A stretch of DNA of 64,000 bases from Promethearchaeota archaeon Loki_b32 (GTDB lineage: Archaea; Asgardarchaeota; Lokiarchaeia; Sigyniarchaeales; SOKP01). Location of the stretch: positions 1 to 64,000 of the forward strand of contig NJBH01000007.1 of the NCBI GenBank assembly GCA_005223125.1, written 5' to 3'. Under the pieces are notes generated by a model. The model searched no databases. It was not told the DNA's origin and saw only the letters and a list, made by a program, of their open reading frames with translations. Positions 3,220 to 28,415 of the stretch are shown here, piece by piece (position 1 is the stretch's first letter; each line of letters begins with the position of its first letter). The position numbers were made by a program, and so were the translations under genes.

Positions 3220-3441
3220 ATGAGATTAACTATTAGTTTTTAATAATACTAGTCTTTATTCATATAAATTATAGAAAACTTTTAAAATTTTTAATTATCT
3301 CTTTCTTTTCTACTCATTTCACGTACTATGATGGGACTATTCTTTTTATTTACCCTAAGAATTTTTTTTAACATTAAAAAATCAATATGTGTTCATTAAA
3401 AATTTCCTTATAATATAAATTAAAATCCCTCGGGTTTATAG

Positions 3442-4881
3442 TTAAGTTAATGCTTTCCTTATATCATTCATTGCTTTTTCTAATTCGTTATTGTTAGAGT
3501 AAACTTTGATTTCAGCAAATCCATTCGATTTGTATGCAGTTGCTTTAAATGTACCATTTTTTATGGAAATATAATGATCATACTCCTTAATCGCTGCAAT
3601 ACCATTTAATTTTTCCACTAATAATTCTAAGGAGTTTCTTGTTCTAATCAACCCGACACGCATTTCAGGTTTTATGGGAGTTTGGCTAAATTCTTTCTCA
3701 AATATCATATTTTTGCATGTATTAACTTCAAACCGGAATGGAGAGTAATTTCGAACTATACAAGCACCTCTCATTAAGCGAGTATTGATACATTTTAAAC
3801 ATGAATTACAGCTATTATAATCAATAAATAAGGTATCCTCTTTAATACTCATTGATTTACAAAATGCAACACACGCACCACAGCCTACACAATTAAGAGC
3901 CTTTTCTACAAGAATTTTCACTTTTTGTCTTTGAAGCTTTTTCTTAATAACAATTGAATTCCGAATTATCTCATAGTCCTTTGATAAAATAGGAATTACA
4001 TTCTCCACTCTTTTAATTTGGTGTGAATTCTCTAAGTTTATAAATGTAATTTCAGGCATAACTTCAATTTTACCTTTTAATTCAGAGTTTTGTGGTCTTC
4101 TATAGGCTGTCCATTTATGATTTTTAATAAAGTCATCTATATTTTTAATACCAAGCCCCTTGCAGTATTTAAAAATAATTCTTAATGTGTTTTGGAGAAA
4201 TATATATTTGTCAGGGAAATGTTCTTCGATTATATTCCAATCTGTTTTAGTTTTAAAAGGGCAGGGCCAACATCCTACTCTTTTAAATCCTAATTTGTAC
4301 AATGGATTGGTTGGTAATTTGTTTGTGTGAATATATGCCCAAACTTCTTGATTTGACCAATCAAGGATAGGATTTATTTGCTTTATTTTAATATGTTTAT
4401 TCATATCGTTTTTCTTATAGTTCTTGCGTCGTGCATGTTCTTCCCCCCTCAAACCAGTTACATAAGATACGATTTTTTTTTCTCTAGCAAAAATAGCTAG
4501 AGGTGAAAATTTATAAACCTTACAACACCATCTCATTGATCTCGAAGGGAATCCAATTTTATGTACAAGTTCAAAAAATGGTACCGGAGCAGTCACTGAT
4601 TCCACCTTTATATCATAAAATTCTTCTACTCTTCTAATGTAATCAATAGTTTCTTGAAATTCCATAGTTGTATCGCAAAATACAACACTATCAATTCCGG
4701 TTTTAATGGCTAAATCAAGGGCGACTAGACTATCTTTACCCCCTGAAAAACATACACAAGCATTTTTATTATACTTTTTAAGAAAATTTATAGATGTCTG
4801 TTCTTTCAATTCAAAATCCTTTTTCATGAATAACAAAGGGATTTCGAATATATTAATTTTAATATCCAGGACATTAAGCAA
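3442..4881 (-). CDS. PP-loop (PAPS reductase family) protein with ferredoxin domain
   Basis: A 479-aa protein. The PP-loop pyrophosphatase motif SGGKDS is at residues 46-51. The PAPS-reductase-like core continues with WCCKVYKFSPL, a TGLRGEEHARR segment and PILDWSNQEVWAYI. A Cys pair, GCWPCPFK, follows. Near residue 335 is a ferredoxin-type cluster site (CVGCGACVAFCKS) and a second Cys group (CNSCLKCIN). The family activates a substrate with ATP for sulfur or thiol transfer; archaea carry such ferredoxin-fused members, and DndC of DNA phosphorothioation is a relative. The next gene encodes a DGQHR protein, so a DNA-modification role is possible, but a housekeeping sulfur role is equally likely. 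The start could be the Met at residue 19. Confidence 0.75.
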   Translation of the reverse strand: MLNVLDIKINIFEIPLLFMKKDFELKEQTSINFLKKYNKNACVCFSGGKDSLVALDLAIKTGIDSVVFCDTTMEFQETIDYIRRVEEFYDIKVESVTAPVPFFELVHKIGFPSRSMRWCCKVYKFSPLAIFAREKKIVSYVTGLRGEEHARRKNYKKNDMNKHIKIKQINPILDWSNQEVWAYIHTNKLPTNPLYKLGFKRVGCWPCPFKTKTDWNIIEEHFPDKYIFLQNTLRIIFKYCKGLGIKNIDDFIKNHKWTAYRRPQNSELKGKIEVMPEITFINLENSHQIKRVENVIPILSKDYEIIRNSIVIKKKLQRQKVKILVEKALNCVGCGACVAFCKSMSIKEDTLFIDYNSCNSCLKCINTRLMRGACIVRNYSPFRFEVNTCKNMIFEKEFSQTPIKPEMRVGLIRTRNSLELLVEKLNGIAAIKEYDHYISIKNGTFKATAYKSNGFAEIKVYSNNNELEKAMNDIRKALT

Positions 4882-4919
4882 ATTTTATAAATTTATTTAG
4901 CAATTGGAATTAAAATATG

Positions 4920-6413
4920 TCAATGTTCCAGTAATTTTCTCCATTCATCATAAACTTTTCCGATTATTAATTCTTCAGGATTATATTGAGAATTTTGAGT
5001 ATAAATCTTTATTAAATTTTCGGTTAAAGTTTTTATATCAGCTTGATTGTTTTTTAAGTTTAGTAACAACGGACTGTTTACATTAAAACTTACTCTTTCA
5101 TCCTCTGAAATTTTTAGATTTTCTCTAACAATCTCCTTAAATCTTGTATTGCGATCAGAAGATAATGCAATTGAAATATGCAAAATTTTACCAATAAGCA
5201 TAGAAAAGCTAGAAAGTACTAACCTACTACGCAGTCTTGAATTTTGTACTAGTTGTTCCCATTCAGATGAATAAATATACTTGATGGCATTGAAGTAATC
5301 TTTAATCAATTCTAGATTAAACTTATAACGACTATCAATTTCAGGAATAGGTAAATCTTCCTTATTAAATGCCTCATATTCTAAAATTTCTTGGATTATA
5401 TAATTCATAGCCCCCCACGATATCAATTCTCCTTGAATTCTTGGTAATCCTCGATTTTTCATGTCAATTATACCGTTAAAAGGGCTATCTTTATCTGTAT
5501 TCAAATACCTAATTAGTGAGGAAATTAAAGCATCTTTTTTATCTTTCTTAGTCATTGTTTCTTGACTATAATCATCTAACGTGCCTATTAAATCCTTCCT
5601 GAAATTCTTAGGAAGATTTTGTGTTTTATTTGCATGTGAAAAAGTTCTTCGAATAAAATTAAGTTTAATTCCTGTATCCTTGTTGTAAAATTCCCCAATA
5701 GCAATAGTTACTGGTCCTACCAATTTCAGAGAATCTGGATCTTCTGAAGCTATAGCTATATTTTCTAAAGCCCACATTCTTTGCTGTCCATCTAAAATCC
5801 AGCCTGGTTTTTCAGCATCATATACATGGCCATCATAAGTAATAATTATAACTCCTATTTCTTGACCATTATAATCTCGAAGTTTAGTATATTCTATTCT
5901 GTTTAAATCAAAATAAATAATTGCTGTAGACCACATTTCAGCTTTGGAAGATTTTAACCCCTCCTTTAATTCCTCAACCCATTTGTCATGCCTTTGTCTT
6001 TGTACACCCATACCAATTTCGTTTATTTTATCTGGTGAAGTATACCTATGAATTCCACAAATTTTTCGTAGATCATAGAAATTAATTAGCCCAACACACT
6101 GAAATAAGCTGAATTTAAATTCATTATCTGTTTCAAAATTTTCTTCTCTTTCTAAATTCCTCTTCATCCATTTTCCTATAACAAGAATTTCTATGGTCCC
6201 TTCGTCTTCGATTTTTTTATACATATATAAATTTTTTGTTCCAGGCCCCTGATTGATTGGTTCAATTTCTCCTCTATTTACCATTTGAGGTATAATTGTT
6301 CTGGTAGTATTTATATTTAGTTCTGCAATTTGAGATATTTCTCTCGCTGTCAATGGGAGGTACGCCCTACTTAAAACTGATAAAATTTTATCTTGTGATG
6401 TTAAATCCGACAT
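4920..6413 (-). CDS. DGQHR-domain protein (DndB/DpdB-like) with N-terminal winged helix
   Basis: A 497-aa protein. Residues 1-65 form a winged-helix or MarR-like segment (LTAREISQIAELNINTTRTI, then VNRGEIEPI). The core carries WILDGQQRMWAL, with DGQQR at 208-212, the hallmark of DGQHR/ParB-like proteins that include DndB and the DpdB-type proteins of DNA modification systems. A SHANKTQNLPKNFR segment follows, similar to the 'FxxxN' region of the family. The ATG is preceded by GGTGA. It is divergent from the HerA operon, with 160 AT-rich bases between. Context suggests a DNA-modification or regulatory subunit. Another ParB/DUF262-type nuclease activity cannot be excluded. Confidence 0.7.
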   Translation of the reverse strand: MSDLTSQDKILSVLSRAYLPLTAREISQIAELNINTTRTIIPQMVNRGEIEPINQGPGTKNLYMYKKIEDEGTIEILVIGKWMKRNLEREENFETDNEFKFSLFQCVGLINFYDLRKICGIHRYTSPDKINEIGMGVQRQRHDKWVEELKEGLKSSKAEMWSTAIIYFDLNRIEYTKLRDYNGQEIGVIIITYDGHVYDAEKPGWILDGQQRMWALENIAIASEDPDSLKLVGPVTIAIGEFYNKDTGIKLNFIRRTFSHANKTQNLPKNFRKDLIGTLDDYSQETMTKKDKKDALISSLIRYLNTDKDSPFNGIIDMKNRGLPRIQGELISWGAMNYIIQEILEYEAFNKEDLPIPEIDSRYKFNLELIKDYFNAIKYIYSSEWEQLVQNSRLRSRLVLSSFSMLIGKILHISIALSSDRNTRFKEIVRENLKISEDERVSFNVNSPLLLNLKNNQADIKTLTENLIKIYTQNSQYNPEELIIGKVYDEWRKLLEH

Positions 6414-6490
6414 AATTTCACCTTTTATTTTTATTTACTATATATAATATAATAATTTTCATATAAAAATCTTATTTAAGTTAATAATAT

Positions 6491-6504
6491 CGAAATATTT
6501 ATAA
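6491..6504 (+). promoter_or_regulatory. Putative BRE/TATA promoter of the HerA operon
   Basis: CGAAATATTTATAA reads as a purine-rich BRE followed by an archaeal TATA box. It lies about 70 bases before the TTG start at 6574, in the divergent intergenic region. The surroundings are very AT-rich, so this is only a plausible match. Confidence 0.35.
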
Positions 6505-6573
6505 GTATTAATTTTAATTATATTATTAAAAAAGTTAATATATAATTATTAATTAATATGAGGAGGTAGTTAT

Positions 6574-6909
6574 TTGAGAAGTTCTACTTTTTTTTTAAAA
6601 TTTAAAGAAGAAAATGGCTTCAATTACAGGAAAATTGTAAATATCCTAAATAACTTAAAATTTGATCATATTATTTATTTTGATGAAATTAATTTTTTGA
6701 CAGAGGAATTCTTACACCAGTATTCTTTATTAGAACGCCAAATTATTATAAAAAATCTTATTTCTGAAAATTATTCTCAATTGGAAATTACATTTGAGAT
6801 ATTTTCGAAATTTTGGGGAGAAAAGAATGATCCATTATTACTTAATAAAACAACATTAGATGTGTTAGATTTAATCAAAAAATCTGAAGGATGTTTAGAA
6901 TTGTATTAA
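6574..6909 (+). CDS. Unknown 111-aa partner preceding HerA-nuclease
   Basis: The start is TTG with a strong ribosome-binding site, GAGGAGGT, seven bases upstream, which decides this start. The product is a small, helical, acidic and aromatic protein with no recognised motif; YFDEINFLTEEFL is its most distinctive stretch. It lies 21 bases before the HerA-nuclease gene, so the two are surely cotranscribed. Small accessory subunits commonly precede HerA-type ATPases (NurA is the classic case), but this one is too short for NurA and lacks its fold signature. The function is unknown. Confidence 0.6.
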   Translation: MRSSTFFLKFKEENGFNYRKIVNILNNLKFDHIIYFDEINFLTEEFLHQYSLLERQIIIKNLISENYSQLEITFEIFSKFWGEKNDPLLLNKTTLDVLDLIKKSEGCLELY

Positions 6910-6930
6910 TAAAATGAGAGGAGATATAAA

Positions 6931-9270
6931 ATGAATCAAATTAAAAAATCTGTTAGTGATTTATTAGATAAAGGTTATGGTAGACTAATATGTGAGCAGG
7001 GTGGAAAGCGGGGAAGAGTTTTACATCAAGTATCCACAACATATTATAAAAGAATTTTTAAAGGGGGGAATAAAAGAAATAAAGTGAATTATAGAATTTT
7101 CAGTCAGAATTTAACAAAGCAAAAGATAGATATCTTAGCAGATATCAAAAAGAATCCTGATTATGAAATATATCAAGAAGATGTTAAGATTCTCTTAGAT
7201 AAAATACATTATAACATACGTATGATTGCCAAAACACATAGTAAAATTAATTATGCGATTGTTATACCAAAAAAGATTGAAATTGAATTCTTTGGTGGAG
7301 AAGCTTCTTTTGAAGTTGAAGAGGTTGGAAAAATTGGTGGATTGAAAATCAATGCTCGAGTTGATTGTCTGATTGAGTTAGATTCAGAGAAATTTATAAT
7401 AAGAGAATTTAAATCATATGAATTAAACAAAGATGATGAAGTGAGCAATTTAAAATCAAAAAATCATAGAGAATTTATGCAAACTTGCCTATATGGAATT
7501 ATTTTTGAAAAAGCAAGGCATCAGAAATGCGGAGCTGTTCAATTAGTGTATTTTCCAAATAAAGTTGTCTCCTATAATTTTACGGATGATTTAAGGGAAA
7601 CTGCTATAAAATTTGCAATGAATACAGCATTTGAAGGATTTAACGGTATCAATTTTGAGTTTACCTCAGAAGATGATGAAGATCATAATGATGTTAAAGA
7701 TAGCCATACCAAAATGAGTGATTTGCATATTAAATCTGCATCTACCACCTCATTTAGTGATCCATGGAATCATTATAATACTAACGGGAAATCTGAAGAT
7801 GAGGAAGGTTGTCTAGGAAGCATTAACACTGTTAAGGGAAAACCTCTTGAGCTTGTTATGGGTGGTGATAACCAGATGAAAGGATATTTATATCCTAATA
7901 AAGCACACCTCATAAGAGATGGATATTGCGTGATTGTTGAAAAAGAGGAGGATGGAGTGAGAATAATGTGCATTGTTAAAAAAATAGAATGCTCTGAAGA
8001 CCATTTTCCTGGAGAAACTTCAAGTCACAAAGAAGATAACTATAAAATTACTTTGAACCCTGTTGGGCAATTTACACCAGAAGGTTATCAGGCCTTGAGA
8101 CCTCAAACGGTAATTGGTGGAAAAATCAAAATACCAACGCAAAATGAGTTCTGCGAATTTAAAAAAATTCCCCAAAATGGAATGGAAATTGCAAGCGTAG
8201 AAGGATTAAATGCAGGAATTCCATATTTACTTAAAATAAGAACATTATATCAAAGTGTGTTCATGAGTGGGCAACAAGGTTCTGGGAAAACATCTGCATT
8301 GAAAGTACTATCACTTTTAATTGCTCAAGAGAAAGATTCTCCTGCACAAATTATTCTTGATAATGAAGGAGAATATGGTGATTTAGCAATTATTCCTTCT
8401 ACCAAACAATCAGCGAAATTAATGAGAATACATAGAATTAATGCTCTTAATCTCAATAATTTTAGGTTTATTAATATAGGCACAGATGAGGGTTTTTGTC
8501 TTACATTAAAAGCGATTGATCCTGTTGATTTACCTTATTTCATACATGAATTAACGCCAATATCTCACGATACCTTGCAAACAATAATTTATGATATTAT
8601 TGAAGAAAATAAGGGAAAGGAGTTTACACTTCCAGAACTAAAGAAATTTATTTTCTATTATATGGAAAATGAGATATATAGCGCGACATCTGGAACTAAA
8701 TCCGCAATAAGAAGGGCGTTAAATTCCATCTCTCTAAGAATTTTCGATTTATCCGATGTAGAACCAATCGATTTTGAATCTATGTTAATCCCTGGCAAAA
8801 TAACAGTAATTAATTCATACAATTTGAGAGATTCACATCAAAGAATTGTAGGGTTATATTTATTAGCTATTCTTCATAAACGTGCTTTAAAAGGAAAAGA
8901 AAAGCTTAAGGTTTTCTTACATTTGGATGAAATCCAACGCCTCCTTCCCAAATCGAGATCACAATCAGATTCGGAATACTTAAAACGTATTGTTAAATTT
9001 TTAGACGAAATTGTACATCGCGGTAGGAAAAGGGACTATGGAGTAGCATTTGCAACCCAGAGTATCATGGATGTGAAAAAAGAAATCATTGATCTGTGTA
9101 ATACTAAAATTTTCCTTCAGACACAAGGAAGTGGAAGCAACTACTTGAGGGAGTACTTTAATAACAAGCAAGATATAGAACGATTAAAGCGCCTTCCCCA
9201 AGGACATGCTTATATTACGAGTAAGGGGAAGCATGATCCAGTAGAAATCAAATTTCCTTATATAAATTAA
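6931..9270 (+). CDS. PD-(D/E)xK nuclease fused to HerA-type ATPase
   Basis: A 779-aa protein. The N-terminal 230 residues look like a RecB/Cas4-type nuclease: R143-V-D145 on one strand, then REFKSYEL with E159-x-K161, followed by a helix with Q184 (MQTCLYG). Residues 300-430 form a HAS-barrel-like region. The ATPase follows: Walker A SGQQGSGKTS (447-454), IILDNEGEYG, Walker B VFLHLDEIQR (661-670), arginine-rich EIVHRGRKRDYG, and sensor FATQS. HerA ATPases form hexameric DNA pumps. Fused to a nuclease, this is typical of defence or end-processing machines (compare DptH of Dnd systems, HerA-NurA). ATG preceded by GAGGAGAT. It is not the housekeeping HerA, which is shorter and has no nuclease domain. 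Confidence 0.85.
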   Translation: MNQIKKSVSDLLDKGYGRLICEQGGKRGRVLHQVSTTYYKRIFKGGNKRNKVNYRIFSQNLTKQKIDILADIKKNPDYEIYQEDVKILLDKIHYNIRMIAKTHSKINYAIVIPKKIEIEFFGGEASFEVEEVGKIGGLKINARVDCLIELDSEKFIIREFKSYELNKDDEVSNLKSKNHREFMQTCLYGIIFEKARHQKCGAVQLVYFPNKVVSYNFTDDLRETAIKFAMNTAFEGFNGINFEFTSEDDEDHNDVKDSHTKMSDLHIKSASTTSFSDPWNHYNTNGKSEDEEGCLGSINTVKGKPLELVMGGDNQMKGYLYPNKAHLIRDGYCVIVEKEEDGVRIMCIVKKIECSEDHFPGETSSHKEDNYKITLNPVGQFTPEGYQALRPQTVIGGKIKIPTQNEFCEFKKIPQNGMEIASVEGLNAGIPYLLKIRTLYQSVFMSGQQGSGKTSALKVLSLLIAQEKDSPAQIILDNEGEYGDLAIIPSTKQSAKLMRIHRINALNLNNFRFINIGTDEGFCLTLKAIDPVDLPYFIHELTPISHDTLQTIIYDIIEENKGKEFTLPELKKFIFYYMENEIYSATSGTKSAIRRALNSISLRIFDLSDVEPIDFESMLIPGKITVINSYNLRDSHQRIVGLYLLAILHKRALKGKEKLKVFLHLDEIQRLLPKSRSQSDSEYLKRIVKFLDEIVHRGRKRDYGVAFATQSIMDVKKEIIDLCNTKIFLQTQGSGSNYLREYFNNKQDIERLKRLPQGHAYITSKGKHDPVEIKFPYIN

Positions 9271-9380
9271 TTCTTTTCTTTTTTTTATTTTCTATGTATG
9301 TTATGTGGAAAGATATAAAAAAGAATAAAAAGAATAATATAAAAATGTTTTATAACAGAAGAAAATAGGGACTATTAGAA

Positions 9381-10136
9381 ATGTTGAAAAAAGAGAGAAT
9401 GGAAATAATAAAAGAACTAAAACATTTAAAAAACAGACAGAATGAAAGCAATAAGGAGGTAAAAAAGCTACAAAATGAATTTTCCTATATGAAAAGCAAT
9501 ATTAATAAAAATGATGATGAAATAATGAAGAATAGTCTCAAATTAAATGAGTTGTACAACAAGAAAAATGAACTTAAGAAGATTAATACGTCGCTCATTA
9601 ATGAAGAAATAGAAAAACGACGAGTTGAAATTGAGGCTTTATACGAATCTCAAAGTGATAAACTACTAAATTTAGGTGGATTTAAAAAAGATAAAGATAG
9701 GCTTAATGCTGTTTTAAAAGAATTGAAAAAGGCACAAGAAAAACAAACTTTATGTTGGATATGTGGTAGTAATAACATAGGCAGAGACCATATTGAAAAA
9801 GAGTTAGAAGATTTAAATAAACTAATTAATCCACTTCAGGATAAATTAGATTCTATTAGAAAAAAAATTAGGATAAGTAAAGAACAAATTCTAAAGAACC
9901 AAGAATTGAAAAAAAGAAAAAATTTAATTCTTGATATTCAAAAACATATCAAACCCATTTTTGAATATACAGCGAAACTACAAATGGATAAAGATATTCA
10001 AGAAGAAAAAATAGAGCGCATCATAGCAGAAATACCTGCAATTGAAGCAAACATAGAATCACGAGGAAAAAGGATACAGCAAAAGGAACTGGAATTAAAA
10101 GTTGTCGAAGATAAAATTAAAAAAATGTTAGACTGA
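9381..10136 (+). CDS. Hook-only zinc-hook coiled-coil protein (no ATPase head)
   Basis: A 251-aa, almost wholly coiled-coil protein with a Rad50-type zinc hook CWICGS at residues 125-130, exactly in the middle, so the chain should fold as an antiparallel hairpin. No Walker or signature motifs are present. The hook region matches that of the SMC-like protein at 14423-16432 residue by residue in spacing (L-x-EL-x-K, C-W-x-C-G, I-x-R, IE, L). Rad50 hooks dimerise through one Zn and four Cys, so I infer that this protein pairs with that SMC-like protein's hook. It lies 110 bases after the HerA gene. Confidence 0.7.
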   Translation: MLKKERMEIIKELKHLKNRQNESNKEVKKLQNEFSYMKSNINKNDDEIMKNSLKLNELYNKKNELKKINTSLINEEIEKRRVEIEALYESQSDKLLNLGGFKKDKDRLNAVLKELKKAQEKQTLCWICGSNNIGRDHIEKELEDLNKLINPLQDKLDSIRKKIRISKEQILKNQELKKRKNLILDIQKHIKPIFEYTAKLQMDKDIQEEKIERIIAEIPAIEANIESRGKRIQQKELELKVVEDKIKKMLD

Positions 10137-10162
10137 TATATTTAAGATTTTAAAAGATATAG

Positions 10163-10837
10163 GTGTTTAAAATAACAGCTTTAGAAAAATTAACGAGAAC
10201 AAAATTAATATCCTTAGCTAAAGAATGTGGTATTACGCTTAAAACTCAATATAAATTAAATAAATTAGATATTATAAGAATAATTAGAAAGTCTAAAATT
10301 GAAAAGAACAAGCTACAAGACATATTTTTACAATATGTAAATTTATATTACTGTGAATTTTGTAGACAGGATCATTATTTTAACAGCGATATAGGAAGAA
10401 GACATCTAAACTATACAAAAGAATTAAAAGCAGAAAGATATAGAGCTGCTAATCAAAAAACAATCAGATCGAGTAATAATCATGTCATTTGTAAACATTG
10501 TGGAAAGAAATATATGGATGAAAAGTTTTTAAAAAAGCATATAAATAATGCTCATTTTGCTCCAATCGATTTACACAGAATGTCTCTTAAAGAAGCAATT
10601 TTTTATGTAGAGGAAAAATTAGAGGAGTGTATTGATCGTGGAATAGGTGGCTTAAAATTAATACATGGATATCATCATGGCACAATACTTCAAGAATATT
10701 TCCGTTCTGAAAAGTTCAAAATAGATATGAAGCGCGTTGGGCTTTTTATAAGTATATCCAATATTAGAGACTTAGGTTATACACTAGTAAAAATTAATAT
10801 GGAAGAGCTTCAAAAATGTAAGTATCATCTATCTTAA
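10163..10837 (+). CDS. SAP-like and C2H2 zinc-finger protein
   Basis: A 224-aa protein with a GTG start (an in-frame start at this position is needed to keep the N-terminal motif). Residues 5-45 resemble a SAP/Rho-N helix-extended-helix DNA-binding motif (LTRTKLISLAKECGI, then KLNKLDIIRIIRKS). Two zinc-finger-like segments follow: CEFCRQ near residue 71 and a clear C2H2 finger, CKHCGKKYMDEKFLKKHINN followed by AH. The C-terminal 90 residues (LIHGYHHGTILQEYFRS) look like the end of a small mixed domain; HGYHHGT resembles a Smr-type motif (compare HGxGxG). Possibly a DNA-binding protein with a Smr-like end. The gene is in the HerA operon, 26 bases after the hook protein. Confidence 0.6.
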   Translation: MFKITALEKLTRTKLISLAKECGITLKTQYKLNKLDIIRIIRKSKIEKNKLQDIFLQYVNLYYCEFCRQDHYFNSDIGRRHLNYTKELKAERYRAANQKTIRSSNNHVICKHCGKKYMDEKFLKKHINNAHFAPIDLHRMSLKEAIFYVEEKLEECIDRGIGGLKLIHGYHHGTILQEYFRSEKFKIDMKRVGLFISISNIRDLGYTLVKINMEELQKCKYHLS

Positions 10838-10908
10838 ATAGGTTAGGAAATGTTGAAAATGATATAAAATTAACAAATTATAATAGAAATATTAAAATTA
10901 ATTATTAT

Positions 10909-11565
10909 TTGAAGAATCTAAAAGGGTCAATTTTGAAAAAAGAAGAAAGATCTTTCGATAATAGAGCTGAATTTAGAAAAAGCGTAAGAGATTTATTGAA
11001 GAAACATAAGAGATTAGATCGAATCAAACTTTTTTGCCCTTCTTGTGAATCTCAATCAATATCTATTGCAATTAACAAAAATGTAACCGAAGTAAAATGC
11101 TCTACCTGTTTTATTACAGAAAGGATAAAAAAAAAGTACATCGCTTACGATCTAATTGATATATATGGAGATTTCCTTGATCTAATTAATGCAGACCAAG
11201 AGATTCAGAAATTAGAAAAGCGTATTATAGAATTAAAGAAAGAAAGTAAGTATGAATTAAAAAAAGATAACGAGTATAGTAGTAAAGTGCTCTGCTACTC
11301 AAAAATATCGGATATATGTAGGGCAAAAACGGCATCACTAGAGTTGTTACTAGAGGACAAGGACGATGTTGATAAGGAGGAGAAAGATAATTGGAAAATA
11401 AAATTAGAAAAGTATAAGAGACTTGAAAAAGAAGCAGAGAATAACTTAGAAAGAGAAAATAAAATCAATGAAGAATCTTTATTTACTGAAAGTGAAAAAA
11501 ATGATAAAAAGGAAGAGAAGAAGATAGTTGATATATTTTCAGACCCGGGGTTTTTAGATTTTTAA
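10909..11565 (+). CDS. Divergent Elf1-like zinc-ribbon protein
   Basis: A 218-aa paralog of the gene at 23482-24075. Residues 40-70 hold a zinc ribbon (CPSC, then CSTC), followed by YDLIDIYGDFLDLINADQEI, which corresponds to the SEPVD.(F/Y).D(F/W)ID segment of Elf1/ELOF1. A charged helical region follows, and a C-terminal tail EESLFTESE...DIFSDPGFLDF nearly identical to its paralog. Elf1 binds RNA polymerase and aids elongation through obstacles. This copy has lost the basic MGRRK N-terminus and the SEPV residues and is longer in front, so it may act on a different partner. TTG start at 10909; a later in-frame TTG is also possible. Confidence 0.65.
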   Translation: MKNLKGSILKKEERSFDNRAEFRKSVRDLLKKHKRLDRIKLFCPSCESQSISIAINKNVTEVKCSTCFITERIKKKYIAYDLIDIYGDFLDLINADQEIQKLEKRIIELKKESKYELKKDNEYSSKVLCYSKISDICRAKTASLELLLEDKDDVDKEEKDNWKIKLEKYKRLEKEAENNLERENKINEESLFTESEKNDKKEEKKIVDIFSDPGFLDF

Positions 11566-11620
11566 GAAGAATTGAAAAACTAATCGAAAAACAAGAAAAA
11601 AGCTAAGGGGAGAAGTAAAA

Positions 11621-11938
11621 ATACCAAAAAGAAAGGTAAAAGACCCCATTGTCATTAGGAGGAATATTGATGAAGCTTTAAAGCGAATTCACCGATCTCA
11701 AGGAGTTTTTTACTGTGCGTGTGGAATTTATCGTTCAAAAAAAAAGAATTTAATTTACCATCTTAGTCAAAATCCTGATTGTGTTTCAAGATTACTAAAA
11801 ATAGAATTCGATAAAGGAGAAACAAGTTTGTATAAATTTTCTTCCTTATCAAGTTTAGAAAATAATATATGTGATATTTGTGGTCGAGAATGCGCTAATG
11901 AAGCGGGTGTAAGGATTCATAAGAGCAAAGTACATTGA
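11621..11938 (+). CDS. Small C2H2 zinc-finger protein with a non-AUG start
   Basis: The frame from 11576 to the TGA at 11938 is open and encodes two Cys/His clusters: FYCACGIYRSKKKNLIYHL with a later Cys, and a textbook C2H2 finger, CDICGRECANEAGVRIHKS with a terminal VH. No ATG, GTG or TTG lies in frame ahead of the first cluster. The best initiation site is ATA at 11621, eight bases after GGGGAG (105 aa). It could instead be a 5'-truncated gene, or part of a frameshifted longer one. Two C2H2 genes in one operon suggest sequence-specific DNA binding in the island. Confidence 0.55.
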   Translation: MPKRKVKDPIVIRRNIDEALKRIHRSQGVFYCACGIYRSKKKNLIYHLSQNPDCVSRLLKIEFDKGETSLYKFSSLSSLENNICDICGRECANEAGVRIHKSKVH

Positions 11939-12122
11939 GTGTGAATATTAAAATTTGAAGAAAGTAATTTTCATCCCAAAAAAAAAGTTAAAAAGAAAGC
12001 GCGAACTTCTAAATGAAAAGAGATTCTCTCAACATTATCTACAATATTACATAAAAGTTCAAGATTTTCTTCAAGGTCTTCTATTTTTTTTTAAGTATAT
12101 CTTTTTGTCTTTTTGGATCCAT

Positions 12123-13175
12123 TTAAAAATATCTCTCTTTAGTGCTTTTTATAAATTCCCATAAATATCTTAGACGAGATTTTTCCATCATTTTATCAAT
12201 GAATGTCTCATAAGCACCCCAACCTTGTTTAATCAACTCATGAGATTTCTCTTCTTCCTGTTCCATTACCCATTTATTATGAATTGCTCTAATTTTCCAA
12301 TCAGAACATAAATGTTTCCATCTGCGATATCCATGTTTGGATATTTTTCGGCATTCGGGGCACCTACATTCGACTAATTTTTTCTTTTCATCATCAGAAA
12401 AGATTTTATTATAAGTCAATCCATTTTTAGTTTTTAATCCAAAAGTAGCACTTCCATTACCTGCATATCTTTCTGCTGTTTGGGGTAATACAATTTTTCC
12501 ATATGCTGCTTTTCTTCTATAACCTGAAGAATCAGAACTTTTTATTTCGCAAAAAGCTGCAAAATGATAAGTTAATGGAGATGCTCCAACACCAAAAACA
12601 TGAATATCAATATCTAATTTTTTTCCTAATGAACTAAGGTATAGAAATGCCTCGTAAATATTTTTATTTGGTTGGCGATCACCAAAAAAGCCCTTGAAGT
12701 TTTCTTTAAGGATAAAAGCACTTCCTAAGGCAATATAGTTAAAATCCTTTTTTTGTAAAACATGAATGTTTTTATCTAAAGTAGTTTTATTCCATCCATG
12801 TAATGCGGGAATAAGATTAAGATTTGTACTATTATCCCAATAATCAATGTTTTCTATGGTTTTCTGCCAATTGTTCTTCATCTTCCTAATATCCATTTGA
12901 GGATCTAAAGGGTAATCAAAAGGAACTGTATATCTTGGTTTTAATTTCTCTTGAATATCAATAATTGTATCTAAATTAATAGATACCTTTTTCTTCTTTT
13001 GATGATAATTATTTTTAAAGATAGCAAAAGCACCATTGTCTAAAAATAAATTTTCATATGGATATTTTATTTTAGGCTCATCTGATTTCAAAAAGTTATA
13101 TACACTATCCATGACATTGCCATGTTGTATTCCTTCTATGAAATTATTTCCTAATTCCCCTGCCCAATAGTCCAT
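12123..13175 (-). CDS. dpdA: TGT-fold 7-deazaguanine transglycosylase, DpdA type
   Basis: A 350-aa protein. The fold markers of tRNA-guanine transglycosylase are present: FLDNGAF (D46), VPFDYPLD (D87), LIPALHGW, YIALGSAF, HVFGVGASPLTYHFAAF, then DSSGYRRKAAYG with D215 in the nucleophile position, and the zinc site C270-x-C272-x2-C275 with H299. It lacks the PUA and C-terminal domains of archaeal tRNA enzymes (arcTGT, usually over 480 aa) and matches the short DpdA enzymes that insert preQ0 into DNA. The gene follows an ArcS-core gene by nine bases at the end of a long operon, next to an HerA-nuclease. The TGT superfamily is certain; DNA as substrate is inferred from size and context. Confidence 0.8.
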   Translation of the reverse strand: MDYWAGELGNNFIEGIQHGNVMDSVYNFLKSDEPKIKYPYENLFLDNGAFAIFKNNYHQKKKKVSINLDTIIDIQEKLKPRYTVPFDYPLDPQMDIRKMKNNWQKTIENIDYWDNSTNLNLIPALHGWNKTTLDKNIHVLQKKDFNYIALGSAFILKENFKGFFGDRQPNKNIYEAFLYLSSLGKKLDIDIHVFGVGASPLTYHFAAFCEIKSSDSSGYRRKAAYGKIVLPQTAERYAGNGSATFGLKTKNGLTYNKIFSDDEKKKLVECRCPECRKISKHGYRRWKHLCSDWKIRAIHNKWVMEQEEEKSHELIKQGWGAYETFIDKMMEKSRLRYLWEFIKSTKERYF

Positions 13176-13183
13176 AAAAATCC

Positions 13184-13786
13184 TTATTTTACTGACTTAA
13201 GTTTTTCATCTAATTTTTTTAAATTATCTTCTAAAATTAATAATAAATCAGTGTCTGCTGTCTCATGCAATTTTCCAGATATTTTTATAACTTCAAAATT
13301 TAAACCTAATTTATTGAAAGCAATTTCTAATGATTTAAGCGATTCTGAGCCATTTCTTAAATAAGATATGAATTTAATATAATCATTAATTTTTTTAGCG
13401 TTAAAAAAACCAAATATTCTTTTACTTATAATCTCAATATATTCTTTTTTAATTTTATCAGTTTCAAATAGAGGATTCCAATCATAAGAATCAAAAGGAT
13501 ATCTATCACAGAATTCATAGGGTATTATACCTGCATTGGAGATTATGATTTTTTGGATATTTTTATATTTATCAATAACTTCATTAAAAGCACGATGGAT
13601 TGGTGAATTATAATAAGGTTTTATAGCAGCACACGGTAAAAATATTATGGTTTTGGTATTCTCTTTTATTATATAATCCTCCTTAAAATAGGATTGCCAA
13701 ATCTCAAAATGAGGATGGATCAATTGTGCCTTCCCCACGCCATTTAATCCAATGAAATCTTTTTCTAATATATCTGGTGGTTTCAT
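13184..13786 (-). CDS. Stand-alone archaeosine synthase core (ArcS, DUF5591-like)
   Basis: A 200-aa protein. It carries the ArcS signature PC-x3-KPY-x2-S-x2-H exactly: P51-C52, K56-P57-Y58, S61, H64, in FLPCAAIKPYYNSPIH. Full ArcS proteins of tRNA archaeosine synthesis add a TGT-like N-terminus and a PUA domain; here only the catalytic core remains. ArcS attaches lysine or an amine to the nitrile of preQ0, and the radical SAM partner RaSEA then releases archaeosine. Directly upstream of dpdA and cotranscribed with it, this enzyme would modify preQ0 already in DNA. No RaSEA is evident in the island, so the end product may depend on the host enzyme or be a lysine adduct. Confidence 0.8.
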   Translation of the reverse strand: MKPPDILEKDFIGLNGVGKAQLIHPHFEIWQSYFKEDYIIKENTKTIIFLPCAAIKPYYNSPIHRAFNEVIDKYKNIQKIIISNAGIIPYEFCDRYPFDSYDWNPLFETDKIKKEYIEIISKRIFGFFNAKKINDYIKFISYLRNGSESLKSLEIAFNKLGLNFEVIKISGKLHETADTDLLLILEDNLKKLDEKLKSVK

Positions 13787-13869
13787 AATCGTTTATAATC
13801 TTAAAAGGAAATTTAATATTATTACTAAAATAAACAATTTAATTTAATTAAACATTTAGGAGAGGTTCC

Positions 13870-14328
13870 TTAAATCTTTTCTGACGGATCATCCCAAACC
13901 TTTCCAATAATAAAATCATGATTAGTAACATGAGAAAAATATGATGGTTTCTTGTTTGTTATTATATTTCTAATGTAATTATCAAATGTAATCACAAATT
14001 CTTTCAAATGTTCTAATTTACCTAAATATTCATAAAGAATCATAGCCCCAACAGCAGAATTTCTTAATTTTGGTTTAGATATTCCTGGTATATCAATTTT
14101 TAATGGATTTTTAATTAGTGAATAGTGAAGTGGAGTAATTATTTCAGTATTATAATTACTCATTTCTTTCATTTTCTTCGGAATATTTGGGCTGCCTCTA
14201 CCGCTTGGATATTTTGGGGGACATATTCCTAAAAAAGCTTGTCTAATTGAATTTGGAACATTTTTCGATTTTTGTGAATCATATTGAAATTCAATAATTA
14301 CTAAAATATATCTAGTTTTATATTTCAT
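13870..14328 (-). CDS. Unknown 152-aa protein, paralog of 16553-17014
   Basis: A soluble mixed alpha/beta protein. It shares with the 153-aa protein at 16553-17014 the pattern YDS.KSKN(V/I)PN..R(Q/E)AFLGI.PPK.P.GRGSP, then P..(Y/F)SLIK.P.KID.PG, and a region N(S/T)AVG..ILYEY(I/L)G. The two copies bracket the SMC-like gene. I recognise no family. The conserved PPK-GRGSP loop could bind nucleotide or nucleic acid, but nothing shows it. The ATG is 94 bases after the SMC-like stop, and the gene lies ahead of the ArcS core. Confidence 0.6.
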   Translation of the reverse strand: MKYKTRYILVIIEFQYDSQKSKNVPNSIRQAFLGICPPKYPSGRGSPNIPKKMKEMSNYNTEIITPLHYSLIKNPLKIDIPGISKPKLRNSAVGAMILYEYLGKLEHLKEFVITFDNYIRNIITNKKPSYFSHVTNHDFIIGKVWDDPSEKI

Positions 14329-14422
14329 GTAATATGGTGATGGTATTTTAAATTCTTCTATTTTTAAACTTCATTTTAGGTTAAAAAGTTTGAAAATGAA
14401 GATATTTAATATTAATACAAAT

Positions 14423-16432
14423 CTAAATCTCTTCTTTTATTAAATCTTCATCAGTAACCCTGGTTAATATCACAAACCAATCATTTTCCTTAGCTATATT
14501 CTTTAAATAATTATAGAAAATTTCTCTACGTTCATTATCCATTTTTAAAATTATATCATCTCCAACAATAAAGGGTATCTCTGGATTATATGTTTCTTTA
14601 GCAGATATTTGTAATAATGATGAAACAATAACTCTCTCACCCGCGCTCAGAGAATTTATTGCTTGTGGATTAGGATTACCTTTTCTAATAATTTTTAATT
14701 TATTATTATCTTCAATATCTAGATATATTTTTTCGAACTTCGGCAATTTAAGTTCCTCTATTATTTTTTCAATATTTTTATTGAATTTATGTGCGGCTCC
14801 TTCTCGTTGTTCTTTTATATTTTTTTCTAGATGAGAATTAATAGTAGTAAATATTTCATCAAATTCTTGAACAATTTTTTTTGCTTTTAGAAGATCAAAT
14901 TCTTGTTTTAAAATTTCTATACTTTTACAATCATCTATATTTAATTCTAAATTTGAGATTTGGTTTTCAATAGCACCCTTTTTCGTATTTTGTTTTTTTG
15001 TTTCTTCCCTTGTTTTGTTTATTTGAGTATCATCAATTATTTGTTTCTCGAGTTCATTTCTTTTTTCTACTAATTGATTAATGGTTTTCTTCCGACTCTC
15101 AATGATTTTTGTAAACTTCTTTACTTCCATATCTTCCTTATTTTTTTGTTCTTCTTTACTACTATTTTCTTCTGCAAGTTCTATTAATTTACTTCTTAAT
15201 AATTCAATTTTTTTCTTTACATCAGGAAGGTTTGCTTTTTTTGCTTTTTCTTTCTGTTTAATATTTATAATTTCCTTATTATCTTCGATCTGAGTTTCTA
15301 AATCTCTATAATTTTTGCGATAAGGAGTTAATTCATCTTGTGTACTTTTTAAATCATTTTCAATATCGTTTCTATCTATTTCTTTACCCCCACAAACCCA
15401 ACAGATTACTTTAGTTTCTTTGGTCTTATCCAATTCTCTTAAAATACCTTCATACTTCTTCTCGTGGTTTTCTAGTATACTAATCTCGGGTAATAATAAC
15501 TTTTGTTTTTCAAAATTCTTCTCATTTTCTTCATGTAGTTGATTTATTTCATTATTTAATTTACTCATATCTATTTTCATATAATCGTTTTTTTCCTGTT
15601 CCAATTTATCCATATTTTTTGTTTCATCTTCAATTGTATTTTTGTTTTCTTTTATCTTCTTATCTAAATCATTAACAGTTTTCTTTAGACTTAGGAATTT
15701 CTTCTCAGTATCTGAATTCAATCTTTGTTTATCCTTGATTTCTTCAATAATTTCCTTACGTTTTTTTTTCATTTCTGTATTCGATTCAATTTTTTCTAGC
15801 TCCTTTTCAATATTAACTTCCAGCTGTCCTATTTTCTTTATAACTTCCTCAAGTTCCGTTTTATTCTTTTTTAATTCTCCCTCAAACTTCTTTTTATTAT
15901 TCTCCTTTGTCTCAATTTCTTCCTTTTTAGCAGTAATTAAATCTGAATAAGATCCAACAATGTCTTCTATTGATTCATAATCTTTTGCTAAGGACATTTC
16001 AGTTACTATCCATGAAAAATCAGATAATCCATGATCAATATAATTCTGTATTTTAGAATTTTCTACTAGCATACTACAATAAATAAATTTTTGGTTACCA
16101 GGAATATTTATTTTTTCAGAACCATCTCGATTTAGTTCAATAAATTTTTTAACATCATCATAATGAAGTTCAATATTGGCTTTTTCTTTATTATAATTTA
16201 AGAGGGGTGAAAATATTGCATTATCTGCTTTGGCAATTCCAAAGCTTATAGCAGTATTCCTAATTTCTTCTGAGTTTATTGGAATTGATAAAGCTAATGC
16301 ACAAGATTTAAGTATTCTGCTTTTGCCAGAAGCTGTTCGTCCTCTGATCTCTGTTACTACGCCACTATTAAATTCCCAAGTTTCTTCCCCTTCTCTTTGC
16401 CCAATATTCACTAATTTTAAGACTGCTTTCAT
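14423..16432 (-). CDS. Rad50/SMC-like ATPase with zinc hook
   Basis: A 669-aa protein. The N-terminal Walker A is GRTASGKS (31-38), after VVTEIR. Coiled coil runs from about 155 to 540, interrupted by a zinc hook CWVCGG at 344-349. The C-terminal signature is NSLSAGERVIVSSLL, Walker B is IPFIVGDDIILKMD, and the last segment (WFVILTRV) fits the H/D-loop strand. The Walker B second acidic residue is D rather than the usual E. It is shorter than true Rad50 (about 880 aa), and no Mre11 gene is nearby, so it belongs with the archaeal SMC-related proteins. The start overlaps the stop of the 45-aa gene (ATGA). Confidence 0.85.
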   Translation of the reverse strand: MKAVLKLVNIGQREGEETWEFNSGVVTEIRGRTASGKSRILKSCALALSIPINSEEIRNTAISFGIAKADNAIFSPLLNYNKEKANIELHYDDVKKFIELNRDGSEKINIPGNQKFIYCSMLVENSKIQNYIDHGLSDFSWIVTEMSLAKDYESIEDIVGSYSDLITAKKEEIETKENNKKKFEGELKKNKTELEEVIKKIGQLEVNIEKELEKIESNTEMKKKRKEIIEEIKDKQRLNSDTEKKFLSLKKTVNDLDKKIKENKNTIEDETKNMDKLEQEKNDYMKIDMSKLNNEINQLHEENEKNFEKQKLLLPEISILENHEKKYEGILRELDKTKETKVICWVCGGKEIDRNDIENDLKSTQDELTPYRKNYRDLETQIEDNKEIINIKQKEKAKKANLPDVKKKIELLRSKLIELAEENSSKEEQKNKEDMEVKKFTKIIESRKKTINQLVEKRNELEKQIIDDTQINKTREETKKQNTKKGAIENQISNLELNIDDCKSIEILKQEFDLLKAKKIVQEFDEIFTTINSHLEKNIKEQREGAAHKFNKNIEKIIEELKLPKFEKIYLDIEDNNKLKIIRKGNPNPQAINSLSAGERVIVSSLLQISAKETYNPEIPFIVGDDIILKMDNERREIFYNYLKNIAKENDWFVILTRVTDEDLIKEEI

Positions 16433-16566
16433 TGTTGCTTTTCACCAAGATATTTCTCTATTTTATTTCGAAATTCTTTAATAAAAATTGCTTCATCTAA
16501 ACCTTCTCGAACTGAAGATTCAATATACTCAACAATTTCATCAATTAGTTTTTTATTTTGCGACAT
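16429..16566 (-). CDS. 45-aa microprotein overlapping both neighbours
   Basis: The ATG at 16566 lies inside the end of the 153-aa gene (14-base overlap), and the TGA overlaps the ATG of the SMC-like gene (ATGA at 16429-16432). The product, starting MSQNKKLIDEIVEYIESSV, is a charged helical peptide. Double overlap in the same frame order as the operon supports translation by coupling. It may be a small subunit of the SMC-like ATPase. No family is recognised. Confidence 0.55.
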   Translation of the reverse strand: MSQNKKLIDEIVEYIESSVREGLDEAIFIKEFRNKIEKYLGEKQQ

Positions 16567-17014
16567 CCTTTAAATCATAACCTATAATTAGTTTAATTGA
16601 AGTGATTTCTGAATACCATTTTGGTTTTTCACTTTTTTTTTCTAAAAATTCAGCTATCTTAAGGCAACAATCTTTATAATCTTCAAGAAGACCAATATAT
16701 TCATAAAGAATAATTGTTCCTACAGCTGTATTTTTTAATTTATATTCTCTTTCTCCAGGCAAATCGATTTTTACTGGCTTCTTAATTAAAGAGAAGTAGA
16801 TTGGATATAGAACTTCTTCATTAGGATTGCATAAGTTATTAAGATCTCTTAAAATTGGACTCCCTCTCCCTTTTGGGTGTTTAGGAGGATATATCCCTAA
16901 AAATGCTTCTCTAACTTCGTTTGGTATATTTTTACTACTCTTAGAGTCATATTTAAACTCAATAACTACAGAGAGATATTTTGTATCATAGTCTAAATCA
17001 AACACTTTTGCCAC
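16553..17014 (-). CDS. Unknown 153-aa protein, paralog of 13870-14328
   Basis: GTG start at 17014 preceded by AAAAAGGTG. It shares the conserved core described for 13870-14328: IEFKYDSKSSKNIPNEVREA, then GRGSP and NTAVGTIILYEYIG. It sits between the AAA+ ATPase and the SMC-like ATPase, ten bases after the AAA+ stop. Keeping two diverged copies around one ATPase suggests a heteromeric partner or adaptor, as an inference. No known fold was recognised. Confidence 0.6.
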   Translation of the reverse strand: MAKVFDLDYDTKYLSVVIEFKYDSKSSKNIPNEVREAFLGIYPPKHPKGRGSPILRDLNNLCNPNEEVLYPIYFSLIKKPVKIDLPGEREYKLKNTAVGTIILYEYIGLLEDYKDCCLKIAEFLEKKSEKPKWYSEITSIKLIIGYDLKDVAK

Positions 17015-17024
17015 CTTTTTCTAT

Positions 17025-17660
17025 TTAATCTTTTAAAATATTCTTATCTTTTAATATTTTACTTAAATCTTTTATTATTTTAATGAAATTAACGAATTCA
17101 TCGTTACTCGATTGAAGATAATCATTTTTTAAACCCTCTCGATGTTCTAGGATTTCTTTAATCAAACTTAAGATTGGTATTAATTTTGATGAATGATTAA
17201 CTAATTCATCGAAATCTTTAACATTGATATCTAAATCTAGTTTTTGTAAGTTATCATCACTTTCGTTTAAATTTTCATAACTTGTAACTGGCGTACTAAG
17301 GATTTCTTGCCGATCAACATGAATTTCCGTCCCTCCAACAAGTTCTAATGATCGGTATAGCATGTTAAAATCTAATTTTTCGGTGATTGGAAATGCACCA
17401 ACAGCTTTGAATAATGCTACTCTAATACCTCTTTCAATATCAGAACCAGAATACCCATGGGTTAATGTTATCACCCCATTTACATCCTGTCGTCTTAATT
17501 CTTCTATTAAAAAATCATCATTTCTTATAAGATCACTACTTTCTTCAATCTCTTTCTCAATTGAATAAATTTTTTCGTATTCTATATCGATTTCATCAAA
17601 TATTAAAGCATCAACATGTATTTCAGCATCACTTATTCTGTTTATGAATGATTTTAACAT
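17025..17660 (-). CDS. C-terminal part of a frameshifted AAA+ ATPase
   Basis: A 211-aa frame that begins seven bases before the stop of the upstream frame. Its start continues a AAA+ domain just after the sensor 1 region: INRISDAEIHVDAL stands where the arginine-finger and following strand normally lie, and LTHGYSGSDIERGIRVAL is the sensor 2/lid motif (GYSGSDI). The tail (residues 150-211) is helical. A -1 shift in the A-run (CAAAAATG) at 17660 joins both frames into one protein of about 380 aa. Either a real frameshift, programmed slippage, coupled reinitiation at the ATG, or a homopolymer sequencing error. Confidence 0.6.
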   Translation of the reverse strand: MLKSFINRISDAEIHVDALIFDEIDIEYEKIYSIEKEIEESSDLIRNDDFLIEELRRQDVNGVITLTHGYSGSDIERGIRVALFKAVGAFPITEKLDFNMLYRSLELVGGTEIHVDRQEILSTPVTSYENLNESDDNLQKLDLDINVKDFDELVNHSSKLIPILSLIKEILEHREGLKNDYLQSSNDEFVNFIKIIKDLSKILKDKNILKD

Positions 17661-18175
17661 TTTTGTTCTAAACTCGTAGCTAAGGGAAGACCTTTATAAT
17701 TAACAATATCGATTGTCTGTAAAAAGGCAATCACAGCTCGTTTAATCTCCCCAACTTCATGTACATTAGACCTTTCGGACCCAATAGCATCAATTTCATC
17801 AAAGAATAATATGAAGTTACCATTCCCTTCAGCTATATCCGCAGCTGTTTCTATCACTTGACGAATATTTCTTATTGTATCCCCTAATAATGATGAAACC
17901 AATCTATTAGATTCTACAACACAAACTGGAATCTTATATTTTTGAGCAAAAGCCCTTGTTAATGAGGTTTTTCCTGTACCTGGGGGACCAAATAATAGCA
18001 TTGTTAAATTGGGTGCTAATTTTGTATTTTTTAATCTCTCAGCGAAACGTTCATAATTATCTAATGCTCTAAAAAAATCTTCTAATCTTTCCTTTTGTTC
18101 TTCATTACCAATAATATCATCTACTTCTTCAATTATATCCATTTCAAAGTAAACAGTACCATAATTACCTAGCAT
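17654..18175 (-). CDS. N-terminal part of a AAA+ ATPase (Cdc48/FtsH-like class)
   Basis: A 173-aa frame. VDDIIGNEEQKERL is the typical opening of a AAA module, with Walker A LLFGPPGTGKTSL and Walker B FILFFDEIDAIGSER. The second region of homology begins before the frame ends at LATSLEQKC. The rest of the domain is in the next frame. An alternative start is ATT at 18214, six bases after a good AAGAGGATGA site, adding ISQDKYNHEEIKA; the ATG at 18175 has no such site. Single-module AAA+ proteins of this kind remodel protein complexes; the substrate here is unknown. Confidence 0.75.
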   Translation of the reverse strand: MLGNYGTVYFEMDIIEEVDDIIGNEEQKERLEDFFRALDNYERFAERLKNTKLAPNLTMLLFGPPGTGKTSLTRAFAQKYKIPVCVVESNRLVSSLLGDTIRNIRQVIETAADIAEGNGNFILFFDEIDAIGSERSNVHEVGEIKRAVIAFLQTIDIVNYKGLPLATSLEQKC

Positions 18176-27380: not shown

Positions 27381-28415
27381 TTATATTGAAAAATATGCTG
27401 TTAGAATATTATCCTTATAGTTGGCTTTTATAACTTTTGCTTCAATTTCTTTTCCAAGTAGTTTTTCGGGTTGTGGGATTGGATAATTTAAAAGTACTTT
27501 AATACCAAAATTATTATTTAATTTGCCAATATATTCCCTTTTCCATCGTCCTTTAGAGATAATTGTTAATTTAATGCGATCATTTTTTTGTAAATTCAAG
27601 GAAGCAACAACTTTTCTTTTATGGATTCCAAAATCTTGTGGTCCTAATTTTAATTTAATTTTAAATTTTTTCTCAAGCATGGATAATTGTTTATAAAAAA
27701 AATCCCAACCTTTAGGTCTAATCTTTTTTAATTTTCTCCCTGTTTTATAAATTAAGTATTTTTGAATCCCGATTTGAATTTTTTTTTCTGAAAAACCCTT
27801 GTTTCTTAGTTTTAGAACATATTTTATAATTTCTTCAATATCGTCATCATTTTCTCCTGGAAACCATACAGGGGCTATTAATACATCAATTTGTGTACTT
27901 AGTAAAAGTAAAATGTTATTTAGAAGCTTTTCTATATTATAATTTTCACAATTACATAGGAAATTAGCTTTTTCTTGATTTAATGAATTTAGGCTAATAT
28001 TAATTCTTGTGACCTTAGTCTCTTCTAATTGTTTAATCACATCCTCATTTAATAATAATCCATTGGTCTGCAAAGATATAATTTCAATTCCTTTTATGTT
28101 CCACAGCTCTTTAATTAAGTCAAATAATCCTGGATAGAGCAAAATTTCGCCATACGGAGCAAAATGTATTTCAATTTTATGATGTCCTTTAATCTCGACC
28201 ATGTTTCTAATTTTTTTAAGTAGATAATTAGGATCGACAATAAAATCAGTATCATAACTTCCAGCACTAACGAAACAATATTTACATTTCAAGTTACATA
28301 AAGTTATAGGTTTTACTTCAATAACATTGGTTCCTCTATCAATTACACCAATAAAATCTACTCCATATAATGGAATTTTTGATTTTTCATCCACATTAAT
28401 TATAGAGACGGACAT
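27381..28415 (-). CDS. Radical SAM protein with C-terminal TRAM domain
   Basis: A 344-aa protein. The radical SAM cluster motif is CNLKCKYCFVSAG near residue 38, followed by EIHFAPYGEILLYP (the GGEP-like position) and ISLQTNGLLL. Residues 260-344 look like a TRAM domain: strands LKLGPQDFGIHKRK, then KNDRIKLTIISKGRWKREYI and a terminal strand. This matches the archaeal COG2100-type family, presumed RNA-modifying. The ATG is nine bases from the Pelota gene, so the two are one transcription unit. The substrate is unknown. Confidence 0.75.
   Translation of the reverse strand: MSVSIINVDEKSKIPLYGVDFIGVIDRGTNVIEVKPITLCNLKCKYCFVSAGSYDTDFIVDPNYLLKKIRNMVEIKGHHKIEIHFAPYGEILLYPGLFDLIKELWNIKGIEIISLQTNGLLLNEDVIKQLEETKVTRINISLNSLNQEKANFLCNCENYNIEKLLNNILLLLSTQIDVLIAPVWFPGENDDDIEEIIKYVLKLRNKGFSEKKIQIGIQKYLIYKTGRKLKKIRPKGWDFFYKQLSMLEKKFKIKLKLGPQDFGIHKRKVVASLNLQKNDRIKLTIISKGRWKREYIGKLNNNFGIKVLLNYPIPQPEKLLGKEIEAKVIKANYKDNILTAYFSI

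Follow-up and report, generated by a model that had tools for sequence, protein, structure and literature searches.

A stretch of Lokiarchaeal DNA of 64,000 nucleotides (the window) holds, side by side, a gene for a TGT-fold enzyme and a gene for the core of ArcS. The question raised by this arrangement is whether the two proteins modify DNA, which base they would leave there and what the modification would serve. The original prediction was that they likely form deoxyarchaeosine in the DNA of an Asgard archaeon. No description of an Asgard genome with 7-deazaguanine in its DNA was found in the open literature searched.

Results

Identity of the two proteins

Both open reading frames were found on the minus strand at the predicted positions. 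The first (12123-13175) encodes a TGT-fold, DpdA-type transglycosylase of 350 residues without a PUA or other arcTGT C-terminal domain. The second (13184-13786) encodes a stand-alone ArcS core (DUF5591) of 200 residues, in which the full architecture of the tRNA enzyme, with its TGT-like N-terminal and PUA domains, was not found. The genes are separated by 8 nt and not by 9 bases as first given. Comparison with the close relative G151 gave dN/dS values of 0.09 for DpdA and 0.18 for ArcS. The two reading frames are under purifying selection and are therefore not chance ORFs; both genes are maintained.

The 350-residue protein matched the Pfam TGT family above its cut-off (8e-10) and PHROG 887 (1.5e-8), while the PADLOC/NCBIfam DpdA models gave weak matches (0.005). 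The curated bacterial DpdA HMM, NF041059, scored 15.9 bits, below its cut-off of 200, and the protein is therefore called DpdA-type only and not a bacterial DpdA equivalog. The residues of note are D46, D87, D215 and a zinc site formed by C270/C272/C275/H299. The proposed catalytic aspartates, D46 and D215, align on D89 and D264 of E. coli Tgt, and the zinc site aligns with the tRNA TGT ligands C302/C304/C307/H333, as had been predicted. The AlphaFold model (pLDDT 84.5) matched arcTGT 1iq8 best among PDB entries (1.2e-10). H192 aligns with the conserved H196 of phage 9g; arcTGTs have the histidine too, so this residue does not discriminate DpdA. Position 47 is Asn in the window protein and Ser in nearly all of its relatives.

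The possibility was considered that the protein is a tRNA arcTGT. In a maximum-likelihood tree, which is unrooted and contains long branches, the arcTGTs lie on one side of a branch with a support of 100/99, and the window protein is grouped with its G151 orthologue and a protein from a viral contig (100/98). Forcing this trio into the tRNA TGTs was rejected by the AU test (p=0.011). An arcTGT identity, which would have refuted the original assignment, is thus rejected by the tree and the AU test. Furthermore, four positions separate the DpdA-type rows of the alignment from the tRNA TGTs: P123 (44/44 vs 0/11), H126 (44/44 vs 2/11), S213 (41/44 vs 0/11) and G226 (75% vs 9%). All four residues are present in the window protein and in four phage DpdAs, including those of 9g and CAjan. 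Both phages carry 7-deazaguanines in their DNA, and in CAjan the modification requires the CAjan DpdA (PMC6884629). We infer that DNA is the substrate of the window DpdA.

A tblastn search of the window DpdA against phages gave no match, nor did viral scans with the single protein and with the A3 alignment. The haloviral candidate DpdA, gene 69 of HVTV-1, was tried as a member of the family and set aside, as it had no HMM match and a branch length of 4.3 that made it unusable. An archaeal-virus group, DpdA4, has reportedly been defined.

The 200-residue protein matched Pfam DUF5591 at 3.9e-14 (53.2 bits, cut-off 26) and NCBIfam ArcS at 5e-13, and the predicted ArcS motif, PC-x3-KPY-x2-S-x2-H, was located at residues 51-64 (PCAAIKPYYNSPIH). 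The top PDB match of its AlphaFold model (pLDDT 85.3) was AF0587 2q07 (3.7e-7). In the ArcS tree a branch (99/97) separates the stand-alone cores from the full-length tRNA ArcS proteins; a few members of the full-length side are arcTGT paralogues that match the core only weakly. The window core belongs to a supported set of 7 (99/99) that includes the ArcS of Vibrio phage nt-1, itself a long branch. This joins into one family the stand-alone cores encoded by archaeal chromosomes, by STSV viruses and by phage nt-1.

The T. kodakarensis ArcS attaches lysine to the nitrile of preQ0 and is active on the preQ0 nucleoside and 5'-nucleotide, but not on the free preQ0 base (PMC11298593). Since the nucleoside and 5'-nucleotide suffice, tRNA is unnecessary for this enzyme (PMC11298593), and action of a PUA-less core on preQ0 in DNA is chemically plausible. 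By analogy with this enzyme, it is plausible that the window core works on preQ0 already present in DNA, most likely with lysine as the donor.

Recurrence of the pair

The occurrence of the pair was surveyed by HMM search of fetched loci. A DpdA-like gene with a stand-alone ArcS core as its immediate neighbour was found in the window and G151, in four genomes of one family (G056, G057, G060 and G062), in two of another (G169 and G170), in G171 and in a divergent form on a Loki contig (L148). The same arrangement was seen in Archaeoglobales (L135), Hydrothermarchaeum (L136), an uncultured archaeon (L140), Methanodesulfokora (L141) and Nitrosopumilus (L143), as well as in STSV1 and STSV2 (L113, L114), STSV4 (L080) and the viral contig L130. 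The two genes are thus adjacent in about ten or more separate lineages, in both gene orders and often as overlapping ORFs. With one such gene among ~4000, chance adjacency is of the order of 1e-3 per genome, and the recurrence of the arrangement therefore suggests a joint function of DpdA and the stand-alone ArcS core. The list of pairs is biased because it was partly gathered by searching with DpdA. When Asgard genomes were searched with ArcS, DpdA adjoined 6 of the 9 short ArcS-core ORFs among the matches listed.

Each gene also occurs alone. Relatives of DpdA without ArcS were found in SIRV-like rudiviruses, Poribacteria and some Heimdall and Loki genomes, and ArcS cores without a recognised DpdA beside them in L071, L072, L076 and L131. 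A zinc-less TGT relative with no ArcS neighbour is encoded on L115-L129, a set of viral contigs some of which are rudivirus-like (with the length of SIRV1/SIRV2).

The part of the original prediction that concerned an Asgard DpdA-type transglycosylase and its ArcS partner is supported by the trees, by the signature residues and by the repeated occurrence of the pair in archaea and their viruses.

The island and its other genes

The DpdB-like gene, HerA and the island context described below had been missed earlier; with them, the likely role of the two genes is no longer that of an isolated modification pair but that of components of a Dpd-like system. The pair lies in an island of approximate extent 3220-17020. 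The DpdB-like protein (4920-6413, minus strand, 497 residues) has a DGQHR domain and matched PADLOC DpdB at 8.9e-28. The NCBIfam matches were to DpdB at 3.3e-22, below the curated cut-off, and to DGQHR at 4.5e-22, above the cut-off. A DndB identity for this protein was discarded, the PADLOC matches being to DpdB models only. The DpdB-like gene accompanies DpdA in two related genomes only, and no DpdA was seen near three other Asgard DGQHR proteins within the stretches read.

A HerA/VirB4-like DNA translocase is encoded on the plus strand (6931-9270), preceded by a gene for a 111-residue protein (6574-6909, plus strand) that is conserved in the related G151 island. The N-terminal domain of the HerA protein contains a D...ExK-like motif in a region, GGLKINARVDCLIELDSEKFIIREFKSYE, that resembles a PD-(D/E)xK core when read by eye, and the domain may therefore be a nuclease. 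No DUF328/DpdC match was obtained among the island proteins scanned, and the ArcS core stands in its place. Similarly, where bacterial Dpd systems have DpdD-K, the PADLOC scan of part of the island ORFs showed a HerA-type protein.

The remaining genes include a BrxP/SspD-like protein of the PAPS-reductase family with a ferredoxin-like domain (3442-4881, minus strand; BrxP 1e-52, SspD 5e-22) and an archaea-specific SMC-related protein, ASRP (14423-16432, minus strand; NF045487 3e-58). The ASRP gene is flanked by genes for two paralogues on the minus strand, a 152-residue protein of the ASRP module (13870-14328) and a 153-residue protein (16553-17014). The ASRP, PAPS-reductase and 152/153-residue unit occurs without DpdA, ArcS and HerA in G112, at the same site, and in G115, elsewhere; it may therefore be a separate system, and the PAPS-reductase protein and ASRP probably form a module of their own. 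Together with the 152/153-residue proteins they resemble a mobile module of the defence type.

Three plus-strand genes between HerA and DpdA (9381-11565) encode an ASRP-like zinc-hook coiled coil, an Smr/C2H2 zinc finger and an Elf1-like zinc ribbon, and are missing at that position in G151. Beyond ASRP, an apparent out-of-frame deletion has split a gene for an IteA-like anti-phage AAA ATPase (17025-18175, minus strand) into ORFs 17654-18175 and 17025-17660; G151 and G112 have intact copies, of 404 and 412 residues. An Rfam gathering search of window positions 1-30000 gave no match.

The independence of the ASRP module raises the appreciable possibility, although it is not the favoured one, that two unrelated systems share the island: DpdA and ArcS, with or without DpdB, on one side, and ASRP, the BrxP-like protein and HerA on the other, with another mark such as phosphorothioate and a HerA that is blind to 7-deazaguanine. 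The BrxP and SspD matches of the PAPS reductase are its best ones, and relatives of HerA in G100 and G116 have no adjoining DpdA or ArcS. However, HerA adjoins DpdA-like genes in many unrelated contigs (L069, L135-L138, L140, L141 and L148), among them contigs of Archaeoglobales, Hydrothermarchaeum, Korarchaeota, Loki, Bacteroidota and Calditrichota, with NurA in addition in L137 and L138. Moreover, the window and G151 islands both hold the DpdB-like gene and HerA with the pair.

Chromosomal setting and exchange of the island

The window genome and G151, which holds the closest relative of the locus, belong to the same family, in which the pair was found in these 2 genomes only. In the sister genomes G117, G124 and G125 the orthologues of the flanking genes lie close together and the intervening genes are missing. 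Pelota and other flanking genes are syntenic with the sister genomes, and the locus is therefore chromosomal. Between the window genome and G151, dS for seven island genes was 0.3-0.99 (PAPS reductase 0.99, ArcS 0.95, DpdA 0.89), whereas pelota and the neighbouring radical-SAM gene were at or near saturation and the gene at 18229 gave 1.84. The low dS of the island relative to the near-saturated flanking genes indicates lateral exchange; on these substitution rates, the simplest reading would be that the island was exchanged between the genera after their split. The region downstream of pelota (about 3220-29500) behaves as an integration hotspot, with different islands in the window genome and G151 than in G112 and none in G117, G124 and G125.

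Lateral movement would also be expected if the pair were a virus-derived anti-restriction tool lodged in the chromosome, protecting the DNA of a mobile element without a restriction partner. STSV1, 2 and 4 carry the pair, and outside this island the genes most closely related to the window pair are those of the viral contig L130, where ArcS is 48% identical. We regard this explanation as unlikely: in both genera the island occupies the same place in the chromosome, near pelota, no capsid, terminase or integrase was recognised among the island proteins scanned, and the DpdB-like, HerA, ASRP and BrxP-like genes are typical of defence islands. The L130 contig (3162-6606) also encodes a C39 peptidase with a pseudomurein-binding repeat, which hints at a methanogen virus.

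Host preQ0 and archaeosine genes

Outside the island, the host genome additionally encodes an arcTGT and RaSEA, along with two ArcS-like frames. Because the host has its own arcTGT, ArcS and RaSEA, the DpdA-ArcS pair is not needed for tRNA, and access to preQ0 is implied. QueD was not found in the window genome (95.5% complete), and the QueC matches were partial. The earlier statement that RaSEA is absent holds for the 64-kb window but fails for the genome, in which RaSEA is encoded on another contig (G000:C44, 345.8 bits) beside the tRNA ArcS. Two radical SAM proteins of the window (27381-28415 and 30331-31482) were considered as RaSEA candidates and dropped, as NCBIfam did not identify them as RaSEA. 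In the control genome of S. acidocaldarius neither DUF5591 nor RaSEA was matched, so in STSV viruses the modification by the core may end with the lysine adduct.

It is improbable that the pair modifies RNA instead, with the divergent TGT inserting preQ0 into a tRNA or some other RNA, where the ArcS core would turn it into the lysine adduct or G+. In favour of this reading, the relatives of known structure in the fold search all act on tRNA, short bacterial TGTs without a PUA domain work on tRNA and the host has RaSEA. Against it, the window protein lies outside the tRNA TGT clade and carries the DpdA signature residues, the genome is already provided with arcTGT and two ArcS-like frames, and the pair, confined to 2 genomes of its family, is carried elsewhere by viruses and by islands that have HerA/NurA genes.

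Discussion

The favoured reading, to which we assign a probability of about 0.68, is that the island is a Dpd-like DNA-marking system of the Lokiarchaeon in which ArcS replaces DpdC and HerA attacks unmarked DNA. In the proposed mechanism, DpdA would exchange guanine in DNA for preQ0, probably assisted by the DpdB-like DGQHR protein. The ArcS core, in the place of the bacterial DpdC, would then add an amine, most likely lysine, to the nitrile of preQ0 in DNA. The DNA is predicted to end up with a 7-deazaguanine amidine, either preQ0-lysine or, if the chromosomal RaSEA acts on DNA, archaeosine. DNA without the mark would be attacked by the HerA protein with its nuclease-like domain, in a putative restriction role.

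Deoxyarchaeosine, the product originally predicted as likely, is a possible rather than an established end product. ArcS gives a lysine adduct and G+ formation needs RaSEA, which in the host sits beside the tRNA ArcS and outside the island; further conversion to dG+ by the chromosomal enzyme is possible but unsupported. The base that could be measured is predicted to be the lysine amidine of preQ0, which earlier LC-MS searches for dPreQ0, dADG and dG+ may not have targeted. A broader proposal, which we consider rather doubtful, is that dPreQ0-Lys is a stable DNA base of the archaea and archaeal viruses that have DpdA and a stand-alone ArcS core, serving as the self-mark of the Lokiarchaeal system with its HerA-nuclease effector. 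If this is true, modification in STSV1 and STSV2, whose hosts are apparently without RaSEA, would stop at the lysine adduct.

Comparison with known systems

The combination of DpdA and ArcS has already been published for Vibrio phage nt-1, the DNA of which contains dPreQ0, dADG and traces of dG+; viruses with 7-deazaguanine genes also include two Bicaudaviridae and twelve Ligamenvirales (PMC6884629). Phage nt-1 resembles the window in having a stand-alone ArcS core with a DNA transglycosylase, and the two ArcS proteins share a supported clade. However, its DpdA2 is very distant from the window DpdA and is not matched by the family HMM, and nt-1 is a phage with its own preQ0 synthesis genes rather than a chromosomal island. 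The STSV1, STSV2 and STSV4 viruses have a two-gene unit like that of the window (e.g. ORF18/ORF19 of STSV1), with overlapping ORFs and a TGT protein of the same HMM family. Unlike the window pair, the STSV proteins have lost the zinc site, the gene order is opposite and no DpdB or HerA is annotated in the stretches read. The DpdA1 proteins of tailed viruses (9g, CAjan) share the P123/H126/S213/G226 signature and the catalytic Asp positions, but they are separated by long branches, mostly lack the zinc ligands and have preQ0 genes or Gat-QueC as partners.

HerA with a TGT-family protein has been published as the BREX-Related Capture (BRC) systems, without DpdB or DpdC (PMC12839542). The window likewise combines a HerA translocase with a TGT-family protein. 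However, BRC loci contain PglZ, DUF6079, a STAND NTPase and DUF4007, whereas the window has the DpdB-like protein and ArcS and no recognised PglZ. Neither PglZ nor DUF6079 was found in Pfam scans of the window proteins, the sole BRC component found being the HerA-type protein. In the openly accessible literature searched, no locus with ArcS, DpdB and HerA was described, and none in Asgard genomes.

Related gene clusters were also seen elsewhere. Contigs of Bacteroidota (L137:3389-10511) and Calditrichota (L138:1499-8657) encode a DpdA-like protein with NurA, HerA and a protein of ~1065 residues, without ArcS; these are a possible bacterial counterpart. In Heimdallarchaeum endolithica (L134:6001-13161) genes for a type II methyltransferase and for a DEAD helicase resembling DpdJ/BrxHI/DruE adjoin a DpdA-like gene, and a Haladaptatus plasmid (L236:877-8767) has a Dpd-like cluster of a TGT gene with DUF6884, a PLD nuclease and a DEAD helicase.

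In the bacterial Dpd system (dpdA-K), as in the window, an island that encodes a DNA-translocating protein also holds a DpdA-type transglycosylase and a DGQHR protein of the DpdB-like kind. The two differ in that the bacterial system has DpdC (DUF328) where the window has the ArcS core, and the recognised DpdD-K set where a HerA protein was seen among the island ORFs scanned. The combination of DpdA, ArcS, the DpdB-like protein and HerA would extend Dpd-type DNA marking to the Asgard archaea with a different tailoring enzyme, and the island would then represent, in an archaeon, a variant of the self-marking defence known from bacteria.
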